From a virus: DNA of 28,030 nt. The stretch's first letter is position 1; each line of letters opens with the position of its first letter. The notes under the pieces are model-generated. The model did no database searches, was not told the DNA's origin, and saw only the letters and a program-made list of their open reading frames with translations. The stretch spans positions 1 to 28,030 of IMG/VR virus record IMGVR_UViG_3300029922_000257, one strand, 5' to 3'. Positions 2,856-19,033 of this stretch are shown here, piece after piece. The translations under genes and the position numbers were made by a program.

Positions 2856-3085
2856 AACAGGAACTACTCTACGACCTCCTCAACCGAGCCCTAACCGAGG
2901 AACTCGGTCTTGTCGTGACTACCAACAATCCTAAGGCGTTGACTTGTAACCTACATGAACTTACGAAAGGTATTCAGAAATATGCGCCGCTTATTCTAAC
3001 CATTCCATCAACCTTGGAAACGGTTATGATCGTAAAGCGAACAGTGGAGCTAGATGAAACAGGAGAGGATCACAATGTTACCTGA
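2852..3085 (+). CDS. Hypothetical 77-residue protein
   Basis: ATG 2852 overlaps the upstream stop as ATGA. The protein begins with an amphipathic helix (LLYDLLNRALTEELGLVV) followed by TTNNPKALTCNLHELTKG, and has a hydrophobic middle (YAPLILTIPST). No family is recognised. Its 3' end overlaps the next ORF by 11 bases. Confidence 0.65.
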   Translation: MKQELLYDLLNRALTEELGLVVTTNNPKALTCNLHELTKGIQKYAPLILTIPSTLETVMIVKRTVELDETGEDHNVT

Positions 3086-3275
3086 ATCTTTAGCAACTAT
3101 ACCGAATATCCCTTGGCAAAGCCAGACTATCGAACAATTAAAAGCTGAGCGTGATTATTGGAATTCGAAAATTAAATCTGCTGATGAATGGTGGGAAAGT
3201 GTTGGTGAAGCTATAAAGTTTCGTGACGCTTGCACTCGTGAAATTCAACGAAGGGAGCTAGATGAAGATGTCTGA
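3075..3275 (+). CDS. Hypothetical 66-residue protein
   Basis: The start is ATG 3075, six bases after the strong site AGGAGAGG (3061-3068); the upstream in-frame ATG 3054 precedes that site and is rejected. The product is helical, with an aromatic patch (YWNSKIKSADEWWESVGEAIKF) and a basic end (CTREIQRRELDEDV). The function is unknown. It overlaps both neighbours and is AT-rich. Confidence 0.6.
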   Translation: MLPESLATIPNIPWQSQTIEQLKAERDYWNSKIKSADEWWESVGEAIKFRDACTREIQRRELDEDV

Positions 3276-6600: not shown

Positions 6601-6774
6601 ATGCCTGATTCAGTTCAATTCTTCGTCTCTCGTATAGATCAAAATACTTATCGTGTTGTTGTTCAAAATGGAATAACAATTATTCGCACAGCTGATGTTA
6701 GTGTAGCAGATATTATGGATAAACTTGGTTATGAATTAGAACAACTACAAAGTTTAGGTGATTTTAATGCCTAA
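6601..6774 (+). CDS. Hypothetical AT-rich 57-residue protein
   Basis: ATG 6601 has AGGAGAG eight bases upstream. The product starts MPDSVQFFVSRIDQNTYRVV, a probable beta hairpin, and ends with a helix (VADIMDKLGYELEQLQSLGD). The GC content is about 34% by hand count, against about 55% in the start of the SSB-like gene before it, so it looks like a separately acquired gene. Its stop lies eight bases beyond the start of the polymerase-unit gene, in a different frame. The function is unknown. Confidence 0.65.
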   Translation: MPDSVQFFVSRIDQNTYRVVVQNGITIIRTADVSVADIMDKLGYELEQLQSLGDFNA

Positions 6775-7867
6775 ACCAATTTTTTTAGTTGGCGAAGCCC
6801 CAGGAGAAGCCGAGGAACGCCTCGGCTCTCATTTCGTTGGACCCTCAGGCGCCGAACTAATTCGTATGCTTGGCGAATCTGGGATCTTAACCTTAACTAA
6901 ATTCGATCGCGACTACATCCACCGATACTATTCCCAATCTGACCCAACCTGTATCGACGCAATCTGGCAACTTCACCCAGAAATCTACCGAACCAATGTC
7001 TTTTCCATCCACCCTCCCCGAAATGACATCGAATTCTTCTGCGGACCAAAAGCCTCTGCAATTCCAGGCTACCCGCCGCTTTTGAAATCTAAATACGTTC
7101 GCCAAGAATTCGAACCCGAATTGGAGCGCCTTGCCAATGACATACTTACTCGCGATCCTAATTTGGTGGTTTGCCTTGGCAATACCCCTCTATGGGCTTT
7201 GGCTGGACAAACAGGTATTTCTAAAATCCGTGGCACCACTCTTATATCCACTCATACCGTTGCTGATTATAAGCTCTTACCTACTTACCATCCCGCAGCC
7301 GTAATTCGTGATTGGAGCTTGCGCCCAACCACAATCGCCGACTTTATGAAAGCCAAAAGGGAATCTGCCTATGCCGACATTCGACGCCCCTACAGAGAAA
7401 TTTGGATCGAACCCTCAATCGCCGATATTCACACCTTCTTCGAACTCTGCCGAAGCTGCGACATACTTTCTGTCGATATTGAAACAAGCGGATCTCGTGT
7501 TACATGCATTGGTTTCGCGCCAAGCACTCGACTCGCAATTGTTATTCCATTCGATGACGGACGAACAAAAACTGGATGCTATTGGCCTACTCGGGAGGAT
7601 GAACGTCGAGTCTGGAATCTTATCCGCTCGATTCTTGAGGATGGAACTATTCGAAAACTGTTCCAGAACGGAGCCTATGACATCGCCTTCCTCTGGCGAG
7701 CCTACGGGATTCGGACAATGGGCGCGGCCGAAGATACAATGCTGCTATCCCATGCCCTTCAACCAGAGAGTCTCAAAGGCCTCGGATATTTAGGTTCGAT
7801 CTATTCCGATGAAAAATCCTGGAAACATATGAGGCGAAAAGATGAAACGATCAAACGTGATGCTTGA
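6767..7867 (+). CDS. Uracil-DNA glycosylase domain fused to 3'-5' exonuclease motifs I-II
   Basis: The 366-residue product has two parts. Residues 1 to about 200 match family 4-type uracil-DNA glycosylases: motif A VGEAPGEAEE (G9-P12), a following FVGPSGAEL, a VVCLGN strand, and HPAAVIRD (H175). The second part starts a DnaQ-like exonuclease: LSVDIETSG is Exo I (D237, E239) and NGAYDIAFLW is Exo II (N301, D305). The frame stops after KHMRRKDETIKRDA, before an Exo III motif; that motif (Y-N-G-L-D) is in the polymerase gene downstream in the same frame. It would cut uracil and proofread with the polymerase. The start is ATG 6767; the GTG at 6758 is an alternative. The N-terminal Cys pair usual in family 4 enzymes is absent. 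Confidence 0.85.
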   Translation: MPKPIFLVGEAPGEAEERLGSHFVGPSGAELIRMLGESGILTLTKFDRDYIHRYYSQSDPTCIDAIWQLHPEIYRTNVFSIHPPRNDIEFFCGPKASAIPGYPPLLKSKYVRQEFEPELERLANDILTRDPNLVVCLGNTPLWALAGQTGISKIRGTTLISTHTVADYKLLPTYHPAAVIRDWSLRPTTIADFMKAKRESAYADIRRPYREIWIEPSIADIHTFFELCRSCDILSVDIETSGSRVTCIGFAPSTRLAIVIPFDDGRTKTGCYWPTREDERRVWNLIRSILEDGTIRKLFQNGAYDIAFLWRAYGIRTMGAAEDTMLLSHALQPESLKGLGYLGSIYSDEKSWKHMRRKDETIKRDA

Positions 7868-8066
7868 AGAAATCAAAGACAAAGTTCACTCCCGCCATAT
7901 GGCGATGACTACGGTTCTCTTAATGCGGCCGGAATCCCTCGATATTGAAAAATATGGGCCGCATTTGTCTTACGTTTGTGGCCAACATCGAGTCTGGGGC
8001 TTTACGTTTAAGGAAGGCCAAGAGCGATTTATAAAGGACTATTCCGCAACGGAGATTGGGAAATGA
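7842..8066 (+). CDS. Small ORF lying between the two parts of the polymerase
   Basis: ATG 7842 has GAGG at 7831-7834 (spacing 7); ATG 7860 is an alternative. The 74-residue product contains a short basic helix and the segments VLLMRPESLDIEKYGPHL and HRVWGFTFKEGQERFI; I recognise no family. The gene overlaps the glycosylase-exonuclease gene by 26 bases and the polymerase gene by ATGA. It sits exactly where the exonuclease chain would run from motif II to motif III. It may be an inserted gene that split the polymerase, or a linker subunit that joins the two halves. Confidence 0.65.
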   Translation: MKRSNVMLEEIKDKVHSRHMAMTTVLLMRPESLDIEKYGPHLSYVCGQHRVWGFTFKEGQERFIKDYSATEIGK

Positions 8067-9562
8067 GGATAATCAAAACTCATGAAGAGGATTTAGATGC
8101 GTTACCAGAATGGGACAAAGACCAAACTTACAACGGCCTAGACTGCCTCGTAACCCGAGACTGTCTCGATGCAATGCTACCTCAACTTGATGAACACACA
8201 GGAGCTACATATGAACTTTCCAAGTCCCTTCAAGCACCGACTTTGGAAATGCGTTGTAGAGGGATCTTGGTTGATCATGAGCAAAAGGCAAATTGCATCG
8301 ACGAATACTTCGAAATCATCGACCGGCTTGAAGGACAGCTTAATCGCATTGTATTCGAAGGGGTCGGCCTCGCAAGCTTTAATTGGCGATCCCATGCCGA
8401 CTTACGCAGACTCTTTTATGAAACTCTCGGAATACCTCCGATCCGCAAATCCGGTCGGCCAACAACCGATCGGGCCGCAAGAGAAAAGCTTGAAGTCTAC
8501 CCTATCGCCCAACAAATCGTCAAACACATCAACACTCTTACAGAGCTTGGTGATAAAATATCCGTTCTTAAAACAGCAATTGATGACGATGGAAGAATTC
8601 GAACGTCTTATAATATTGCTGGAACGTCAACCGGCCGGTTTTCGTCTTCCCTATCAGAATTCGGAACTGGCGGTAATCTTCAGAACGTTGAAGAGTCTCT
8701 GCGAAGCATATTCATCTCTGACCCAGGTTTTAAATTCGCCAAATGCGATGCTAAATCCGGAGAGTCCTTCGCCGTTGGAGCTATCGAATGGAACCTCTTC
8801 CATGACGGAAAGTTCTTGGAAGCCTGCGAGTCTGGAGATCCTCATACGGCCGTGGCTAGAATTATGTGGCCAACTCTCCCCTGGACCGGAAACCTTAAAC
8901 TTGATAAAACAATTGCAGAGTCTCCCTATTACCGACATTATACTTACCGCTTCATGTGTAAAAAACTCGGACATGGGTCTAACTATGGAGGTAAACCTGC
9001 GACCCTCGCCGAACAAGCCAAAGTAGAAATCGACCTTGTTCGGCAGTTCCAACCAAAATACTTCGCAGCCTTTCCTTCCCATCTACTCTGGCAAGCTTGG
9101 GTAGATGAAACCCTCCGCAAGCAAGGTTTTCTGATCTCTCTCATGGGCCGAAAGCGTTGGTTCTTTGGCCGACGAAATGATCCAAAAACCCTTCGCGAAG
9201 CAATCGCCTATGATCCACAATCGACTCTTCGTGATATTGTCTCCACTGCGATGATGCGTATTTGGCGAAAGAACTATGTCATCATCGCAATGGATGACCA
9301 CGATGCAATCACTTTCATGTATCGCGAAGCGGACGAAGATCAAATCATCCCGATGTTAATGAAGGACCTAATCGTTGATGTGCCATTGGCGCACAACCGA
9401 GTTCTTCGGATTCCATATGATTGTGAAGTAGGGTGGAATAAAGGTCACTTTGATGCTAACAAAAACCCCAATGGACTCAAAAGCTACAATGGGCACGACG
9501 AACGAAAGCGGCAAAAGACGGCTGGAGTCTTGGATCGAATCATTCATAGACCAAACCGCTAG
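8063..9562 (+). CDS. polA: Family A DNA polymerase with the Exo III motif at its N-terminus
   Basis: This 499-residue protein opens with a short lead to YNGLD (Y23, D27), which is the Exo III motif of a DnaQ-like proofreading domain, so the domain is completed only with the upstream protein. The polymerase motifs follow. Motif A is KFAKCDAKSGES (D229), motif B is RFMCKKLGHGSNYGG (R296, K300, Y308) and motif C is AMDDHDAI (H413, D414). It should be the replicative polymerase. The position equivalent to Phe762 of E. coli Pol I is a His (H304), and motif C ends D-A instead of D-E. GGAG at 8052-8055 serves ATG 8063. It overlaps the next gene by 110 bases. Confidence 0.9.
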   Translation: MRIIKTHEEDLDALPEWDKDQTYNGLDCLVTRDCLDAMLPQLDEHTGATYELSKSLQAPTLEMRCRGILVDHEQKANCIDEYFEIIDRLEGQLNRIVFEGVGLASFNWRSHADLRRLFYETLGIPPIRKSGRPTTDRAAREKLEVYPIAQQIVKHINTLTELGDKISVLKTAIDDDGRIRTSYNIAGTSTGRFSSSLSEFGTGGNLQNVEESLRSIFISDPGFKFAKCDAKSGESFAVGAIEWNLFHDGKFLEACESGDPHTAVARIMWPTLPWTGNLKLDKTIAESPYYRHYTYRFMCKKLGHGSNYGGKPATLAEQAKVEIDLVRQFQPKYFAAFPSHLLWQAWVDETLRKQGFLISLMGRKRWFFGRRNDPKTLREAIAYDPQSTLRDIVSTAMMRIWRKNYVIIAMDDHDAITFMYREADEDQIIPMLMKDLIVDVPLAHNRVLRIPYDCEVGWNKGHFDANKNPNGLKSYNGHDERKRQKTAGVLDRIIHRPNR

Positions 9563-10682
9563 CTTAAACTCGCCTGAAATATTCCGCCGATGGACCGCGA
9601 TCGCCACAATCGCCGCAACACTAGAACAAAAGGTGTGGATCAAAACCACTCGGCCACTTTACCCGAATATGTATATAATGCTAACCGCCCATCCGGGAGT
9701 CGGGAAAACTCGAACCATAAACGAGGGCCGACATTATGTTCAAGCCCTTCCAGAGTTTCATCTCGCGCCGATCTCAATGACCTTTGCTTCTATGGTGGAC
9801 TCGCTGGTAAAAGCCAAGCGGGTTTTAATTCGTCCGCAAGAAGATCCATTAGAATACAACTCTATGTTCATCTGCGTCGACGAACTTGGAGCCTTCATTC
9901 ATAAATACGATAACGAAATGATCGACGGGCTTTCACATTTCTACGATCCCGGACCGTATCAACAAGTTCGTCGAACCTCTGACATCCATATCAAAATCAA
10001 ATCCCCTCAAATCAATATTCTTTGCGGGTCAACTCCGCAGAATCTAACTGAACTTATGCCGGATAAAGCCTGGGGCCAAGGATTTACCTCTCGGCTGGTA
10101 ATGATCTTCTCCGATGAAAGGATCCTTGGCGATGACTTTGCAGATCAAGACGAAATCTATTCGCCTGAACTCGCGGCAGACCTTGCTATTATCAACGGCC
10201 TTGTCGGGCAGTTTGAGGTTACCGAAGCTTATCGGCAATGCGTCAATAACTGGAGAGCTTTGGGAGAGCCTCCTATACCCAATCACCCTAAACTTATTCA
10301 CTATGTTACGCGAAGGCGAACGCACCTTTACAAGCTTTCCATCATCTCTGCAATCGATCGATCCAACGCCCTAATCCTTACCCGCGATGATTTCAACCGA
10401 GCAATGTCTTGGCTACTCGAAGCTGAATCTACGATGATCGAGATCTTCAAGGCCGGTGCGACTAACGCCGATGCTCAGGCCATGGATGAAATCCTACACT
10501 ATATTCAAATCAACGATCGAGGCCAAGGAATCTCCGAACAGAAAATTACCAAGTTCGCATCAGACCGAATCCCGCTACATTCTATCCTCAGAGTGATTGA
10601 GATAATGGAACGCAGCGGACAGATCTATCTTCGTGGGATTGATCGAGGAACGAAGCTTCGATACTTCTCGATTGTCACTTAA
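9453..10682 (+). CDS. DUF3987/AAA+ helicase-like replication protein
   Basis: This 409-residue protein has an N-terminal helical lead (SPEIFRRWTAIATIAATLEQ), then MLTAHPGVGKTRT with Walker A at residues 79-86, a Walker B-like FICVDELGAF, a sensor-like NILCGSTPQN and an Arg-finger-like GFTSRLVMIF. The C-terminal 60 residues look like a winged helix (ISEQKITKFAS, IEIMERSGQIYLRG). This matches phage DUF3987-type ATPases, which probably act as helicase or helicase-primase. ATG 9453 has AAAGG eight bases upstream; ATG 9471 and ATG 9489 are alternatives. It is the last rightward gene, and its stop overlaps the last leftward gene by 8 bases. No separate primase motif is visible. Confidence 0.75.
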   Translation: MLTKTPMDSKATMGTTNESGKRRLESWIESFIDQTASLNSPEIFRRWTAIATIAATLEQKVWIKTTRPLYPNMYIMLTAHPGVGKTRTINEGRHYVQALPEFHLAPISMTFASMVDSLVKAKRVLIRPQEDPLEYNSMFICVDELGAFIHKYDNEMIDGLSHFYDPGPYQQVRRTSDIHIKIKSPQINILCGSTPQNLTELMPDKAWGQGFTSRLVMIFSDERILGDDFADQDEIYSPELAADLAIINGLVGQFEVTEAYRQCVNNWRALGEPPIPNHPKLIHYVTRRRTHLYKLSIISAIDRSNALILTRDDFNRAMSWLLEAESTMIEIFKAGATNADAQAMDEILHYIQINDRGQGISEQKITKFASDRIPLHSILRVIEIMERSGQIYLRGIDRGTKLRYFSIVT

Positions 10683-12115: not shown

Positions 12116-12539
12116 CATACTTCTCCAAGCCGTATTTCTTCATCGCGGCGACTAGGATATCACCATAATGCGGCGCCGTGGCATAAACCCCAGTCAACCG
12201 TTCCGCAAAAGATTCTGCGTCCGCCGAATTCATCGCGTAATGATACGCCGGATGTGTGGCGAGTAATTTCGCATGGGCATCAAACGCGTCGATCACCGAC
12301 CCAAACTTGGCGAACCTCGCTTGAATAGTGATATATCGCCCATGGGCGAATTCGTGTGTGATCGCGGTTACATAAGGTTGATCCACGCCAGCTTTGATCC
12401 CAAATGGATTATTCGATCCGGCCGGTTCATGCGCTCCCCAACCAGACTCAATAATCCACTGCGCGATACTCACACTCGCTGGGACTTTCCATTTCTTATT
12501 CGCCGCCTGCGCAGCGGCAATTACTTCATTTGGTATCAT
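12108..12539 (-). CDS. Endolysin, GH73/FlgJ-like glucosaminidase
   Basis: This 143-residue protein has the FlgJ/GH73-type core. VSIAQWIIESGWG carries the probable catalytic Glu (E31), followed by NNPFGIKAG, then ITHEFAHGRYITIQARFAKFGS (T-x-E motif and the F-x-x-F/Y-x-S element) and YATAPHYGDILVAAMKKYGL at the end. It should cleave glycan strands of peptidoglycan for host lysis. There is no signal peptide or transmembrane helix, so it needs a holin-type exit. The start is ATG 12539, overlapping the stop of the giant gene as ATGA. Confidence 0.85.
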   Translation of the reverse strand: MIPNEVIAAAQAANKKWKVPASVSIAQWIIESGWGAHEPAGSNNPFGIKAGVDQPYVTAITHEFAHGRYITIQARFAKFGSVIDAFDAHAKLLATHPAYHYAMNSADAESFAERLTGVYATAPHYGDILVAAMKKYGLEKYDA

Positions 12540-15500
12540 CTGTTTGCTCCTTTAATATAGTTCTCCACAGATGTTGAATGGCCTTTATTGGTCCCGAACC
12601 GAAGTCCAGTTAACCAAGCCCATACAGTCTTTGGATGTTCAACTCCAGAACCAACTCCATGAATAAACCTAGCCGCCTTTCCAATCTGTGCCGGAACCAT
12701 TCCTGTAATGGCCCCAACAAAACTCGTCGCATCTTGAATCAATCGCCCAGCATGTTCCTTGGCGAAGGGATGATCTTTAGTAAAATCTCTTGCTACGTTT
12801 GAAACCTCTTGCAACGCAGTTCCGGTCAAACCATATTGCGGATCCTTTCCATGGATCATCGCGGTGACAATATCTCTAACCCCAGGCCAACTAGATGCGG
12901 CCGTAAATAATATTTGCTTTCCGACCTTCTTCGCCCAAGAGTCTTTTTCATTATCATCACTTGGCGAAACCATATGTTCAACCAATGCAGGCCAAACTGC
13001 ATATGCAAACAAGCTCGCAGTTAATGCCGGAACCGTAGCCAATGCTGCCTTTTTATCGCCCTTGGCAAGATCCAACGCAGCCCCAGCTTTCCAAATAGTC
13101 TCCATCTGTCGATTCATAATATCAGAGAAGTAATTATAAACCGATGTGAGCCAAGGGTTCCAATCACGTTGAATCGCCGTTCGAGAAGTAATCGCAGTTG
13201 ATCCATGTGCCCGACGAACTGCTCGATCTGCCGCATAGACCGCATCGCCATGAACTCCAGACTGACCCATTTCCTTTTCATACGCCGCCATCCAAGTTGG
13301 AACCGCCGATAGCATATCCGAAATCGCCACGGGTTTGCTTGACCATTCCATAATCCGCTGGCGCCATTCGGGGAATTTATCGCCTGGATTCAACCCTCCT
13401 GCAGCGCCATATAATGTCTCTTGCCAATTTCGATCTCTTCGTTGTAGCTCCAATGAATTCTGAATTGCGAATTGCCAATTAGATTCGCCGGTGGATTCAT
13501 TAATCCGAAACAATCCCGACACCGCTTTAGCAAATTCTTTGCCTCCGACTTCGCGAATAGATGTAACCAATGCCGATGGGCCATGCTTCAATACAGTTCC
13601 AGGGTTCAACCCAACTAATGTCGTGATCATATTCTGGCGAATGAATTCACTTGCTTGAGTGAACGCAGCTTGAGATCGATTATCCCGGTTCGCGGAATTC
13701 GCCACAGATTGCAAATATGGAATCATTTCCTGTTTATATTCATCGCCGTAATACTTTCGCACCGCCGAACGAACATCTTTGTCGTAGAAAACCTTCGACG
13801 CATTCAACACCGCCGGGCGCAATCCGATGTCATGTAACATCTGACTAATCCGCCCAGGCATTTGATCAAGGTCCAAAGCCAATGGCGCGATATATCCGGT
13901 TCGGGATTTAGTATATCCAGCAGGGGTTGTGGCTCGGATGAAGTTCTCTTGTTCAAGCGGGTCCCGGCCCATGAGTTTCTTCGACTTACCTTCCATTTCA
14001 GAATGAAAGATAATCGGATAATACCCACCCGGAACCGTTCCGAATTTAGTCTGCACCGGAGTCACCGCCACATCCTCAGCAGGAACTCCACCAGTTAACG
14101 ACCGATACATGGTATCCGATTTGATTTTAATATCTTTAAAAATATCCCAGATACCTTGGACGAATCTCCAATCTTCAGCCGTTGCATGTTCATGAATCCA
14201 ATTCATAACTTCGCCTGGATCTCGGCCATAACCCTTGGCAAGTTTTACAAGATTTGATTTCGTCCCGGTGTTGAGCATCACCGAAATTAAATTTTTTCGA
14301 GTAAATGCGATCGGTGTTTCTGTATCCATGTCCTTGAACAACGGATTATCCAAGGTTTTATTCAACCCTTCTGGAACGCCAAGGTCTTTAATTTTTGCGG
14401 CGTATTCCTTTTTCCATGCGTCAACTTGATTAGCCCCATCAATCAAATCTCGCATGACGTATTGATTCCATAAACCTTTAGCATCAAATGCATCCCAGCG
14501 GTTAAAAATGTTTTCCATCTGTAGATTCTTGATAAGATAACCACGAAGCAACCCAGGTTTCTTTGGCAGCCGAATTTCTTTACCAACCGAATCGGCGATG
14601 TTATTAATCAGACCTTTTTTAACCTCAGCATAATCTGCAGCTTCGCCTTGTTTATATATCTTCAATTCATCTCGACCATTATGCACAAGGGTCTTGATTG
14701 AATTATGAACATTTCGGAATTCCTCGGTGGTTAAAGCATCTACATTTTTTCGCCAAGATTGATCAAAGAGTTGATCCCAGACCGGAACCTCTCGAAGAGC
14801 CATCTGTTTATTGGAAACAAACTCCTCAAGAGATTTGCTTTCCCCACTTTCAATATGCTTTTGTAGGTCTTGAATTGATCGGCGAACTGGCTTGCCGACT
14901 TGCATAAGGATCCCGTGGATGAATCCAGTGTATTCTGGATCGACACTTGGAACCTCACGCTTAGCAAATTGCTTAGCAGTTCGATCAAACGTAGACTTTT
15001 CTTTTTCGAGTTTCTTAGCTTCCGCGGCAAGCAACCCGACTTCGTATCTCCGTTGCAGAATCGGCAACGCTTTCGCCGTATCACCAGCCGCTAACGCCGC
15101 AACTGCATCGCGGTAATGCTTGGCCATCTGCGTCATCAGTCGCCCGGAATCAACCGTGCCGACTTCCATTTTAGAGAATATCTCCAATGCATGGGCCTTG
15201 GCGAAGTCTTTATCAATAACCTTCACCCCGGCTTGCATCGCGGCCCCTTGCCATTCCTCTGCAAGTAGATTCAAATTGTTCTCACTCAACGCTTGGTCTT
15301 GCGCATCAAGCATAATATTCTTTTGTAAATCACCGAACTTCGCTTCCATTTGGCGATTGGTTTCATCGGCGATTACCTTTTTAAGGTGTTCCTGGGAAGT
15401 CATATCCCCACGATCGCGATTGTATTCGATCAGTTTTTCAACCATCGCATCGCCAGAAGTAAACCCAACCATCTTAGCGACGCCATCAACCGGAAGACCA

Positions 15501-18500
15501 TCGGCCGAGTGGTATCGCCGAGGAAGGGCAGACTTTTGCTCGGCGGTAAGGTCGTCGCTTCGTAGCGGAATAACCTGCCGAATTTTCTTTCCGCCGATTT
15601 CCCCAGAGCCAACAAATAAATCCGCCATTACATCCGGTCGTTGACGAATGGTAGATTCGACTTCCTTAGCGATTTCTTTGGAGTTCTCTTTCCATTCTTT
15701 GGTTTGGGTTTTCGCTTGGTCGCGTTCGGCGCGTTTAAGTGAAGCGGCGATGTCTTCTTGAAAGCGGGTTTGAATTGACTTCTGCATTCGTTCGAAGGTC
15801 TTGGAATCGAGTCCGGCGGCAGAAGCACGGAGATTGTTTAGTCGCGCTTGATCATCACCAAGGGCAAACTTTGGTGCCTCGCCAGCGGGAGGAAGATCAG
15901 GAGAAAATGCTTCCCCCTTCAAGTTGGCGTCTAAGGCCTGATTGAAAAGCTCTCTAATCTTGGGATGATTGAAGTCCGCGCGAACGGCCGTCTCGTATTC
16001 TGGCGAGAAATTCCCAGACCTTATGTCGTCAGCCACCTTCAACGCATCACTCTGAAGATAATCAACAACCTTTTGCGGCCGCCTTGATAGCCAAAGGTCC
16101 CAAGCCTCCTTGCTTGTGTTCCCGGCCGGCTCAATGTTGCCGCCATGCCTATCATCAAAAGCGTCATAAAGAGCCGATGCCACGCCCTTGCGCCGCCAAT
16201 CTGGTGCTGTCTCAACCATCGCTGTGTGGGCCGTCCCTTGTCCCGGCTCAAACGCATCCAATAGAGAGCCTACCATTTTGCCATCGGGCGTCCGCGCCTC
16301 AAACCGACCTTCGTCGGCATTCCATTTGACAGTGAACTTTGGTGCCTCGCCAACAGATACAATTTTATTTCCCGGATGCATTTTACTATACGCGTCCAAA
16401 CCATGAATCTGCTCTTTATTCCATACTTCAATTGGAACCATACCAACTTTTGGCTCATTTGAATATGGAACATTTCTAGATTCTGATGCTATTCCCCATG
16501 GACGAGTATTATCAAATCTTGACGCAAGTGAAGCTGTTCCATCACCATGATCTATAATTCGCCATTTCCCTGAACCAGGTGCCATTCGTTGAGCATCATA
16601 TGCATCAAAATACATAGTCTTATCTGATTTTGGTTTAATTCCAAAATCACCTTCATGTCCTATATCAGATCGCGCAGCTTTATCCCGTGTAGTTGTTCCA
16701 TCAGGATGAATTTTATAAGTTGAGCCTTTAGCTGTTGTAAATCCTTTTATTTCGTCTTTGGCAAACGCTGGACCTCCAGCCTTAACCCCGCCCTCACGAC
16801 CAGCAACCTCCCCAGACTCTACTCTCTTAAAGATTTCATCCGGCGAAAGTTCCCGCCCAAAGATTTCCTTCAACCGAGTTTGGATCCCCTCCCAAAGCTG
16901 GCGAAGCTTTTCGAAAGCCTGCGTTACTAACGTCTGCGGCTGTTCGATTTCATCGCGGCGGCTGGCCCAATCTCGATAAGCCTCGGCGATGGATTCCTCA
17001 TATTGCCCACGGAGATCTAAATCGGAATAACGGTCTTTAATCCCATAGCGATCCAGCCAACCTTCAGATCTCGCGGCGTTGATCAGTCCAGTCCATTCCT
17101 CAGGTTTGAAGAACCCCTGTCGATATAGATGATGAATCGCTTCATGGCGACCATAGCCGATTGGATCGTTGGAAAACAGATCCACGATAATCCGACCGGT
17201 ATCCGGGAAGTAAACTCCAAGAGGATAGCCACCTTCAGCAGTGTAAATACGACCTACAATCTCTGGAGTCGCTCCAGAGATTCGCTGAACTTCTTCCTTA
17301 ACCGCCTGGGCTACTTCTTGCTGCCGAGGCTTTAAAATGTCTGATGGTTCGGCAAAGACTCCACCACCATGATTTTCAAGAAATTTATCGTTAAGTAAAT
17401 CCTGAAGATTATTAAATCCTTGTTGAGTTTCGGACTCGGCAAGCTTCACCACTGGATGGGCAACATCACTTTCCCAAGTTCCAGCAGTTTCCCTCGCCCC
17501 AGAAACTCGATGCCCAGTGACTGTTTCATAGTCAGGATAGATTTCTTTCAGTTGGCGCTTAAGATCCCGAACCAAACTCGGCCCGAATGAATTAGAATAC
17601 AACCCAGCGAGGCCATTGATGTTTGAAATGTAAAGTTCCTTTTTTGCTTCGTCGGGGATGATGGTTAGCTCCCCCGCAGGCTTACCGTCTTGATCGAGGA
17701 ACTGATATTCATGTGCATATTCAAATCCAGGTATTGACGGCTGTTGCTTTAGCTCCAGCTTTCGATCCCCAATCGCAAACATCGGTTCGGTCCCAGAAGC
17801 CGCCCGAGCCTGTGCGATTGGGGCCTCGACAACTGGCTTCGCCTCCCAAGGCTCCGCAGCCTCTCGCGCCGTAATTCCACCGGGCCAAACTCTAAGATCA
17901 TCATGAAGGTCTTTGGCGACTTTTGGGTCAACCTTTGTCATCCAATCCGCAAGAGGAACGTGAACGTCTTCTCCGAGTTTGGCCTCTTCAAGCTTGGCCT
18001 CTATCCCCGGAACCCACCCAAGAAGTCCATCATCTGGACTAGGTAACCGATCGCCATAAAGTTCAGCAACCCGATCGCCAGCAATACCAATCGTAGAATC
18101 GCCATAGTGCTGCTCCGCGAATTTCTGAAAATATTCTGGATCACGATCTCGGGTAAGGGAAGTTTGTGCATCGGCGAGATTAGCGTCGAATTGGTCGATG
18201 TAATGAGAATTTAGATCTGCTTTAGCTTTGTCAATTTCAGGATGAAGCCCCCGAGGCGGTTCAAGTCCGGCATCGATCCAGGGTTTAGCCGCAGCAATCG
18301 CAGCCTCACGAGACTTCTTTGCGGCTTGGCGTTCACCAATCTCCGCGACTTCATGTAGATTTTCGCCAGTCCGCATAAATTCGGATTGAAGCAAACTAGA
18401 CATTTCGCGTTCGGCACGGTCTGGATCTTGGCCGAGTTCCTTAGCGAGTTGCCCTGCGGCTTTGGCTGGACCTTCGGTTATAGGCCCCATCGCGAACTTA

Positions 18501-19033
18501 CCAAGAAGAGTCGCGGCGTCAAGAAGATTGGATTGGATTTGGAGTCCGGCGGCAGTTCCAGGCGAGGTCTGACGAAGTTGGCGAAGCGCTTGTTCATCAG
18601 TTGTTTCTGGCTTTTCAAGATACTCTGCGGCGGTTTGACGAATACTTTCGGCTGCGCCAACGACTCCAGCGACCACAGGTTTGGTGATGTATTTCTCCAT
18701 CCAACCCGGATGGAGTATAGACGTGTTCGGAACGGATCGCGAAAAGTTATCCAAGTTTCCGTAATCGTCATTTGAAACTACATCCGCTAGGGGATTCCCA
18801 CGAATATAACTCGCAATCGCTGGATTGTTACGGACGATATGGGAAACCAATGCGGCTTTGTGACCTTGATCAAATCCATCAAGATCGTTATAAACAACCT
18901 GCGGAGACGCCCCGGTAGCTTTAGCAAGTTTCAGCGCCCGTGCACCAGCATCAGGATCGTCGTCAAGTGATGTTACCGCAAGACTTGGCGCAACAGAGTC
19001 AATACTTTGAACGTAAGGATCATATTCGTTCAT
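12536..19033 (-). CDS. Giant polyvalent internal/ejection virion protein (peptidase-like and GNAT modules)
   Basis: This 2165-residue protein occupies the place of the large T7 gp16-type ejection protein. Residues 1-400 are mostly helical. A possible beta-alpha GNAT-like module follows at about 423-540 (ending GHRVSGAR). An HExxH site, RHEAIHHLYR (H630, E631, H634), with EESIAEAY (E684 a possible third ligand), suggests a zinc peptidase. An unknown module covers 759-895. A GNAT module has motif A WRRKGVASALYDAF at 946-959. From about 1056 it is helical, with a coiled coil, and a hydrophobic segment at about 1993-2018 (LTASLFAYAVWPAL). P-x-F linkers lie at P417, P755, P898 and P1054. It probably enters the host with the DNA, carrying enzymes; this is inferred from the family layout. 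ATG 19033 has GAGG seven bases upstream and overlaps the previous stop. Confidence 0.8.
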   Translation of the reverse strand: MNEYDPYVQSIDSVAPSLAVTSLDDDPDAGARALKLAKATGASPQVVYNDLDGFDQGHKAALVSHIVRNNPAIASYIRGNPLADVVSNDDYGNLDNFSRSVPNTSILHPGWMEKYITKPVVAGVVGAAESIRQTAAEYLEKPETTDEQALRQLRQTSPGTAAGLQIQSNLLDAATLLGKFAMGPITEGPAKAAGQLAKELGQDPDRAEREMSSLLQSEFMRTGENLHEVAEIGERQAAKKSREAAIAAAKPWIDAGLEPPRGLHPEIDKAKADLNSHYIDQFDANLADAQTSLTRDRDPEYFQKFAEQHYGDSTIGIAGDRVAELYGDRLPSPDDGLLGWVPGIEAKLEEAKLGEDVHVPLADWMTKVDPKVAKDLHDDLRVWPGGITAREAAEPWEAKPVVEAPIAQARAASGTEPMFAIGDRKLELKQQPSIPGFEYAHEYQFLDQDGKPAGELTIIPDEAKKELYISNINGLAGLYSNSFGPSLVRDLKRQLKEIYPDYETVTGHRVSGARETAGTWESDVAHPVVKLAESETQQGFNNLQDLLNDKFLENHGGGVFAEPSDILKPRQQEVAQAVKEEVQRISGATPEIVGRIYTAEGGYPLGVYFPDTGRIIVDLFSNDPIGYGRHEAIHHLYRQGFFKPEEWTGLINAARSEGWLDRYGIKDRYSDLDLRGQYEESIAEAYRDWASRRDEIEQPQTLVTQAFEKLRQLWEGIQTRLKEIFGRELSPDEIFKRVESGEVAGREGGVKAGGPAFAKDEIKGFTTAKGSTYKIHPDGTTTRDKAARSDIGHEGDFGIKPKSDKTMYFDAYDAQRMAPGSGKWRIIDHGDGTASLASRFDNTRPWGIASESRNVPYSNEPKVGMVPIEVWNKEQIHGLDAYSKMHPGNKIVSVGEAPKFTVKWNADEGRFEARTPDGKMVGSLLDAFEPGQGTAHTAMVETAPDWRRKGVASALYDAFDDRHGGNIEPAGNTSKEAWDLWLSRRPQKVVDYLQSDALKVADDIRSGNFSPEYETAVRADFNHPKIRELFNQALDANLKGEAFSPDLPPAGEAPKFALGDDQARLNNLRASAAGLDSKTFERMQKSIQTRFQEDIAASLKRAERDQAKTQTKEWKENSKEIAKEVESTIRQRPDVMADLFVGSGEIGGKKIRQVIPLRSDDLTAEQKSALPRRYHSADGLPVDGVAKMVGFTSGDAMVEKLIEYNRDRGDMTSQEHLKKVIADETNRQMEAKFGDLQKNIMLDAQDQALSENNLNLLAEEWQGAAMQAGVKVIDKDFAKAHALEIFSKMEVGTVDSGRLMTQMAKHYRDAVAALAAGDTAKALPILQRRYEVGLLAAEAKKLEKEKSTFDRTAKQFAKREVPSVDPEYTGFIHGILMQVGKPVRRSIQDLQKHIESGESKSLEEFVSNKQMALREVPVWDQLFDQSWRKNVDALTTEEFRNVHNSIKTLVHNGRDELKIYKQGEAADYAEVKKGLINNIADSVGKEIRLPKKPGLLRGYLIKNLQMENIFNRWDAFDAKGLWNQYVMRDLIDGANQVDAWKKEYAAKIKDLGVPEGLNKTLDNPLFKDMDTETPIAFTRKNLISVMLNTGTKSNLVKLAKGYGRDPGEVMNWIHEHATAEDWRFVQGIWDIFKDIKIKSDTMYRSLTGGVPAEDVAVTPVQTKFGTVPGGYYPIIFHSEMEGKSKKLMGRDPLEQENFIRATTPAGYTKSRTGYIAPLALDLDQMPGRISQMLHDIGLRPAVLNASKVFYDKDVRSAVRKYYGDEYKQEMIPYLQSVANSANRDNRSQAAFTQASEFIRQNMITTLVGLNPGTVLKHGPSALVTSIREVGGKEFAKAVSGLFRINESTGESNWQFAIQNSLELQRRDRNWQETLYGAAGGLNPGDKFPEWRQRIMEWSSKPVAISDMLSAVPTWMAAYEKEMGQSGVHGDAVYAADRAVRRAHGSTAITSRTAIQRDWNPWLTSVYNYFSDIMNRQMETIWKAGAALDLAKGDKKAALATVPALTASLFAYAVWPALVEHMVSPSDDNEKDSWAKKVGKQILFTAASSWPGVRDIVTAMIHGKDPQYGLTGTALQEVSNVARDFTKDHPFAKEHAGRLIQDATSFVGAITGMVPAQIGKAARFIHGVGSGVEHPKTVWAWLTGLRFGTNKGHSTSVENYIKGANR
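15867..15884. repeat. 18-bp direct repeat, copy 1 (P-x-F linker)
   Basis: The plus-strand sequence AACTTTGGTGCCTCGCCA is identical to the copy at 16335-16352. It encodes the linker G-E-A-P-K-F before the C-terminal helical half of the giant protein. The two copies bracket the GNAT module. Confidence 0.85.
16335..16352. repeat. 18-bp direct repeat, copy 2 (P-x-F linker)
   Basis: Exact second copy of the 18-base sequence at 15867-15884, in the same reading frame and encoding the same G-E-A-P-K-F linker. It marks the boundary between the AT-rich module and the GNAT module of the giant protein. Confidence 0.85.
16353..16765. other. AT-rich module inside the giant gene
   Basis: Hand counts give about 38% G+C over 16381-16740, against about 56% over 16021-16320 and about 53% over 16801-16980. 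The drop coincides with one protein module (about residues 759-895, containing STYKIHPDGTTTRDKAARSD and KMHPGNKIVSVG) that lies between two P-x-F linkers. The edges match linker positions closely, so this looks like a domain acquired as a unit. Confidence 0.7.

Follow-up and report, generated by a model that had tools for sequence, protein, structure and literature searches.

The window, the whole 28,030-nt stretch of viral DNA analysed here (a 28-kb fragment), encodes a family A DNA polymerase in two polypeptides, with its proofreading exonuclease broken after motif Exo II and before motif Exo III. We consider it very probable that the two proteins are obligate subunits of one polymerase, whose DEDD exonuclease would be assembled in trans, and that the junction between their genes has been reused as an insertion site.

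The locus comprises three genes on the plus strand, in the layout given by the first-pass annotation of the window. The first (6767-7867, +) encodes a UDG-exo subunit of 366 aa with Pfam matches to UDG (E=1e-16) and DNA_pol_A_exo1 (E=1e-6) and a match to phrog_17. A type-4-like uracil-DNA glycosylase (UDG) domain occupies residues 4-188, the first part of the exonuclease comes next, and the protein ends in a tail, ...WKHMRRKDETIKRDA, that is kept in relatives. The third gene (8063-9562, +) encodes the polymerase subunit of 499 aa (Pfam DNA_pol_A, E=5e-27; phrog_17; PDB matches to family A enzymes), in which an Exo III segment precedes family A thumb, fingers and palm domains. These two large ORFs are 195 nt apart and in the same frame. 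Inserted between them is a small ORF of 74 aa (7842-8066, +), which overlaps the end of the exo ORF by 26 nt and the start of the polymerase ORF by 4 nt (ATGA). Downstream, the 5' end of a DUF3987/phage primase-like gene (9450-10682, +; phrog_14296, E=1e-45) overlaps the polymerase gene. The window also contains a 2165-codon ORF on the opposite strand (12536-19033, -).

Inspection of the motifs placed Exo I (D237 and E239; 7475-7483, +) and Exo II (N301 and D305; 7667-7681, +) on the UDG-exo protein and Exo III (Y23-N-G-L-D27; 8129-8143, +) on the polymerase subunit, at the same residues as in the first-pass annotation. The phrog_17 profile, which represents one intact polA, runs on across the gap: residues 110-357 of the UDG-exo protein correspond to profile positions 546-800, and residues 16-462 of the polymerase protein to positions 802-1235. 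In a comparison of the polymerase profile with the PDB, residue 21 onward was aligned to residue 172 onward of the Klenow chain, in agreement with this placement of Exo III, and we take Y23 and D27 to be Klenow Y497 and D501. The earlier proposal that the exonuclease is divided over two polypeptides is borne out; if the exonuclease works, it must be assembled in trans.

All six exonuclease residues are essentially invariant in about 150 relatives, and the DEDD set is complete, but over two polypeptides. D237 and E239 of Exo I are conserved in every relative with this region (70/70 close, 73/73 further). Exo II is near-invariant, N301 and D305 being present in 73/73 and 74/74 close relatives, and in 74/75 and 75/75 further ones; the only substitution at any exonuclease residue is a G at the equivalent of N301 in L265, a member of the further set. 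Y23 and D27 of Exo III do not vary in 82 close and 80 further relatives. By comparison, invariant columns, counted among the close relatives only, make up 13% of the exo protein and 19% of the polymerase protein. The polymerase domain retains motifs A, B and C with both catalytic aspartates, D229, K300, Y308, H413 and D414 being conserved; the motif A aspartate D229 (8747-8749, +) is invariant in 84/84 close and 80/80 further relatives. The His-Asp pair of motif C (H413 and D414; 9299-9304, +) does not vary either. This pair is followed by Ala in the window, not the usual Glu; close relatives have A or S at this position, and further ones A, S or C. Clade-wide, motif C (D414-A415, 9302-9307) reads HDA or HDS, rarely HDC, and not HDE. 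The equivalent of Klenow F762 is a histidine (H304 of the polymerase protein, 8972-8974) in all relatives examined. H304 and D414-A415 both lie within polymerase active-site motifs. Over ten pairs, dN/dS was 0.08-0.25 for the exo protein and 0.04-0.14 for the polymerase protein, indicating purifying selection on both halves.

These data bear on two explanations in which no exonuclease is shared between the proteins. The UDG-exo protein and the polymerase could be independent enzymes, the former working alone with its Exo III residues replaced from elsewhere and the latter without proofreading. Exo I and Exo II are indeed complete on the UDG-exo protein, and many family A polymerases lack proofreading. 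However, more than 160 sequences of the polymerase protein all keep the Exo III tyrosine and aspartate, which is unexpected if there is no exonuclease for them to complete, and we regard this explanation as improbable. Alternatively, proofreading could have been lost, with an exo remnant that now has a purely structural role, as happens in certain thermophilic polymerases; gene breakage often comes before decay. Since the metal ligands are all conserved clade-wide, with the single substitution in L265, such a loss seems very improbable. Conservation of the exo residues would also be compatible with some other role.

The halves are also conserved beside the break, where the new termini flanking it follow common patterns (WKxxRKxxTIKRD at the end of the exo protein, MRIIxT at the start of the polymerase protein). 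In two split members aligned across the junction, the junction is approximately 20 residues longer than in fused proteins. We infer that these conserved extensions form part of the subunit interface. A recombination boundary at the junction was considered, as the halves first looked discordant (42/81 shared nearest neighbours), but it was rejected because in controls the segments flanking the junction agreed better than segments within one protein. Residues 184-366 of the exo protein and 1-180 of the polymerase protein have 36/81 nearest relatives in common, compared with 22-33/81 for other segment pairs. The larger number of shared nearest relatives beside the break fits co-inheritance of the halves.

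In the relative L040, the exo gene, a single TAG and the polymerase gene are in frame (exo-TAG-ATG-pol), and the read-through of this natural one-stop locus was thus folded as one chain. The AlphaFold model has a mean pLDDT of 85.7, with low confidence at residues 333-365 (the junction), in a loop at 551-572 and at the C-terminus, and values of around 82-90 for the Exo III helix. Its best match in the PDB is Klenow (1kfs), over both domains (667 alignment columns, TM 0.70 by target). The model shows that a single predicted exonuclease fold can accommodate both halves, with a loop at the break; it says nothing on assembly in trans, since the proximity of the halves is forced in a single read-through chain of a relative.

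We compared relatives that span the junction. The split is present at the same point in 101/101 distinct close relatives among the matches listed, with none fused, and a further sample of 74 more distant relatives is also split at that point in every case. Thus, among the matches listed, all 175 clade relatives spanning the site are split and none carries it in one polypeptide; as the IMG/VR sets were the best 80 of 121 matches (polymerase query) and the best 80 of 588 (exo query), fused members, if rare, could have escaped detection. Fusion was seen in the group of Microcystis phage Mel-JY34 and in MW202489. On the polymerase tree, the split/fused character requires one change: the split clade has an SH-aLRT support of 100, the fused lineages lie outside it, and no split sequence falls among the fused ones. 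The exact sister group of the split clade is unsure because the outgroup branches are long, as flagged by a warning from the tree tool. Neither a fused member nested in the split clade nor an intermediate was found among the matches listed. Judged from the sequences, the split is one ancient, fixed event. With this single split and the purifying selection on both products, one ancestral gene has given rise to two halves that are retained and conserved. An assembly error at the stop codon (7865-7867), raised earlier as a possible source of the break, is ruled out because separate IMG/VR contigs, from other metagenomes, carry the same arrangement: L002, L003 and L085 (100% identical over the compared parts) and L004 (97-98%).

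The spacing of the halves argues against a joined protein still being made, whether through a programmed frameshift, readthrough of a stop, a self-splicing intron or inteins. The halves overlap or are at most 10 nt apart in 34 of the 101 close relatives, mostly as ATGA or TAATG, with no gene between; two further loci have 35 and 60 nt, and 65 loci have 106-1702 nt. In favor of a joined product, the halves of L040 and L117 are in frame with a single stop, and group I introns are frequent in phage polymerase genes (PMC10580990). Yet the frame permits readthrough past a single stop in just these two of the 101. In 23 of the 36 relatives without a sizeable insert, the open polymerase frame extends upstream from the exo stop by 3 nt at most, and no slippery heptamer was seen; programmed frameshifting was rejected on both grounds, the polymerase frame being closed in most insert-free members. 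Rfam gave no match for the junction, for the window as a whole or for 14 other loci, and many relatives have no spacer at all, which speaks against a group I intron; abutting halves leave no space for an intron or intein. A split intein was likewise rejected, as the exo tails are short and conserved and the polymerase starts 22 residues before Exo III, leaving no space for intein halves. A joined product is unlikely by these sequence features, frameshifting, readthrough and splicing being unable to explain most members, and we give this explanation hardly any chance.

The insert-free relatives also decide against the origin of the split that the first-pass annotation had proposed, namely that the 74-residue gene inserted into a fused UDG-exo-pol gene and so split it, with the product of the small gene joining the halves. 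The small gene is indeed a coding gene located precisely at the break, and L001-L005, L085 and L086 retain it. A homolog with 55% identity occupies the same site in L005 and L086, with pN of 0.30 against pS of 0.64. However, the 34 close relatives with no gene between the halves are split all the same, and the split clade is far older than the small gene, which was found only in the nearest relatives of the window (L001-L005, L085 and L086, among the matches listed). A role for its product as a general joint is excluded, as other members have unrelated proteins or none at the site, and the 74-aa protein itself has no Pfam, PHROG or PDB fold match. Its structural model, based on three sequences of which two are distinct, is of low confidence (pLDDT 69). 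The shared frame of the two large ORFs, from which a former fusion had been argued, is a coincidence because relatives occur in all phases, and that inference fails. We judge the proposal extremely improbable. The 74-residue gene is, by its distribution, evidently a later-arriving passenger and not the cause of the split. Its first codons (7842-7867) overlap, in another frame, conserved codons of the exo tail (ETIKRDA), and because of this overlap the exo gene may be the source of the small protein's N-terminus. Translation of the small ORF could in fact begin at an internal ATG at 7860.

The 65 insert-bearing loci hold 75 insert ORFs, a few loci carrying more than one, and blastp grouped these into 55 clusters, 54 of them other than that of the window. 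The inserts are thus mostly unrelated to one another. An HNH, endonuclease VII, LAGLIDADG-like or GIY-YIG gene is present in 13/65 of these loci according to Pfam and PHROGs, where some matches lie below the Pfam cut-off and related members were assigned by clustering; no homing endonuclease gene occupies the break in the window itself. On the tree, inserts were gained or lost at least 27 times, no less often than with shuffled labels. Many inserts begin in an ATGA with the exo stop and finish in an ATGA with the polymerase start, indicating that translational coupling is kept. The idea that the exo-pol junction is uniquely variable was rejected, since the junction upstream of the exo gene is likewise variable, and the pol-primase junction is not. 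Endonuclease-like genes make up 11/67 ORFs at the exo-pol junction and 3/68 at the upstream junction by Pfam, a modest difference. The polymerase and primase genes overlap in 85/88 relatives by mapped homology, typically by about 90 nt (9450-9562 in the window), and theirs is the only compared junction that inserts seldom enter.

In the two-subunit reading, an ancestral UDG-exo-pol gene would have undergone a single, ancient break separating Exo II from Exo III, perhaps made by a homing endonuclease. The enzyme would since have been a heterodimer, the UDG-exo subunit giving Exo I and Exo II and the N-terminal segment of the polymerase giving Exo III. The exonuclease domain would hold the subunits together, giving a single proofreading polymerase with a UDG domain, and co-translation from overlapping or adjacent cistrons probably favors their pairing. 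The junction would tolerate insertions because the gene is already divided, and homing-endonuclease-like or small cargo genes would have entered and left it repeatedly, the 74-aa gene being one such passenger. More speculatively, a whole lineage may have a two-part family A polymerase with a shared proofreading site that can run as a proofreading-free polymerase when UDG-exo is absent or displaced; we hold this to be rather unlikely. If it is true, synthesis could be separated from proofreading and uracil surveillance, and intercistronic genes could alter the subunit ratio.

In this clade nature provides many proofreading polymerases whose exonuclease active site is cut in two, and a fused sister group with which to compare them. 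This makes it possible to test how a broken essential enzyme is maintained, and whether proofreading can be uncoupled from synthesis via subunit supply. As "empty" and "filled" junctions occur in near-related phages, the traffic of homing genes at a fixed site can be observed directly. Annotators should also be aware that in this clade the first half of the enzyme may be labelled hypothetical, as in the Caulobacter phage Kuura (OQ067476), where it is annotated as a hypothetical protein.

Kuura is the nearest cultured phage found (36% identity for exo, 34% for pol). It is split at the same point, with two genes between the halves, and the main text of its description does not mention the split (PMC9959647). 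Microcystis phage Mel-JY34 and its relatives (L083, L162-L177) have the same UDG-exo-pol family as a continuous polypeptide across the site, and Mel-JY34 shares with the window the synteny of a downstream DUF3987 gene. Other breaks occur among the relatives. An HNH endonuclease gene separates UDG from exo-pol in relatives of the fused type (L179:1343-1684, L185:5626-5967). A break before motif A, between thumb and palm, divides the polymerase in L181 (5248-5520), L182 (6686-6958) and L187 (6676-7573), where the gap holds a 90-aa ORF, or two genes including a methyltransferase-like one. In L273 (MW202554), polA is split after Exo III, between exo and thumb (2986-3138), giving a complete UDG-exo and a separate polymerase.

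Split phage enzymes as such are already known, but a split that bisects the exonuclease site of a family A polymerase appears undescribed: no description of a break between Exo II and Exo III was found in the open-access literature searched. In the marine OM43 phages MEP401 and MEP402, two ORFs flanking a small unknown ORF encode a family A polymerase (PMC10580990); their break is within the polymerase domain, leaving the exonuclease on one ORF, and the authors suspected an intron (PMC10580990). The polymerase of Methanothermobacter is also split in two polypeptides (Kelman 1999, cited in PMC7776575 and PMC3984812), but it is an archaeal enzyme of family B, and the parts of these two papers that deal with it do not mention inserted genes. 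The closest parallels are in T4-type phages. The DNA polymerase is split into gp43A and gp43B in Aeromonas phages 25 and 44RR, and according to a review these co-purify and are active; in phage Aeh1, NrdA is split by mobE and is fully functional (PMC2988022). As in the window's clade, an essential replication enzyme is encoded in two cistrons, in the T4-type phages at sites linked to homing endonucleases. However, the T4-type systems concern a family B polymerase or a ribonucleotide reductase in few phages. The enzyme described here belongs to family A, its break, fixed across a large clade, lies inside the exonuclease active site, and the junction hosts a changing set of many unrelated genes.
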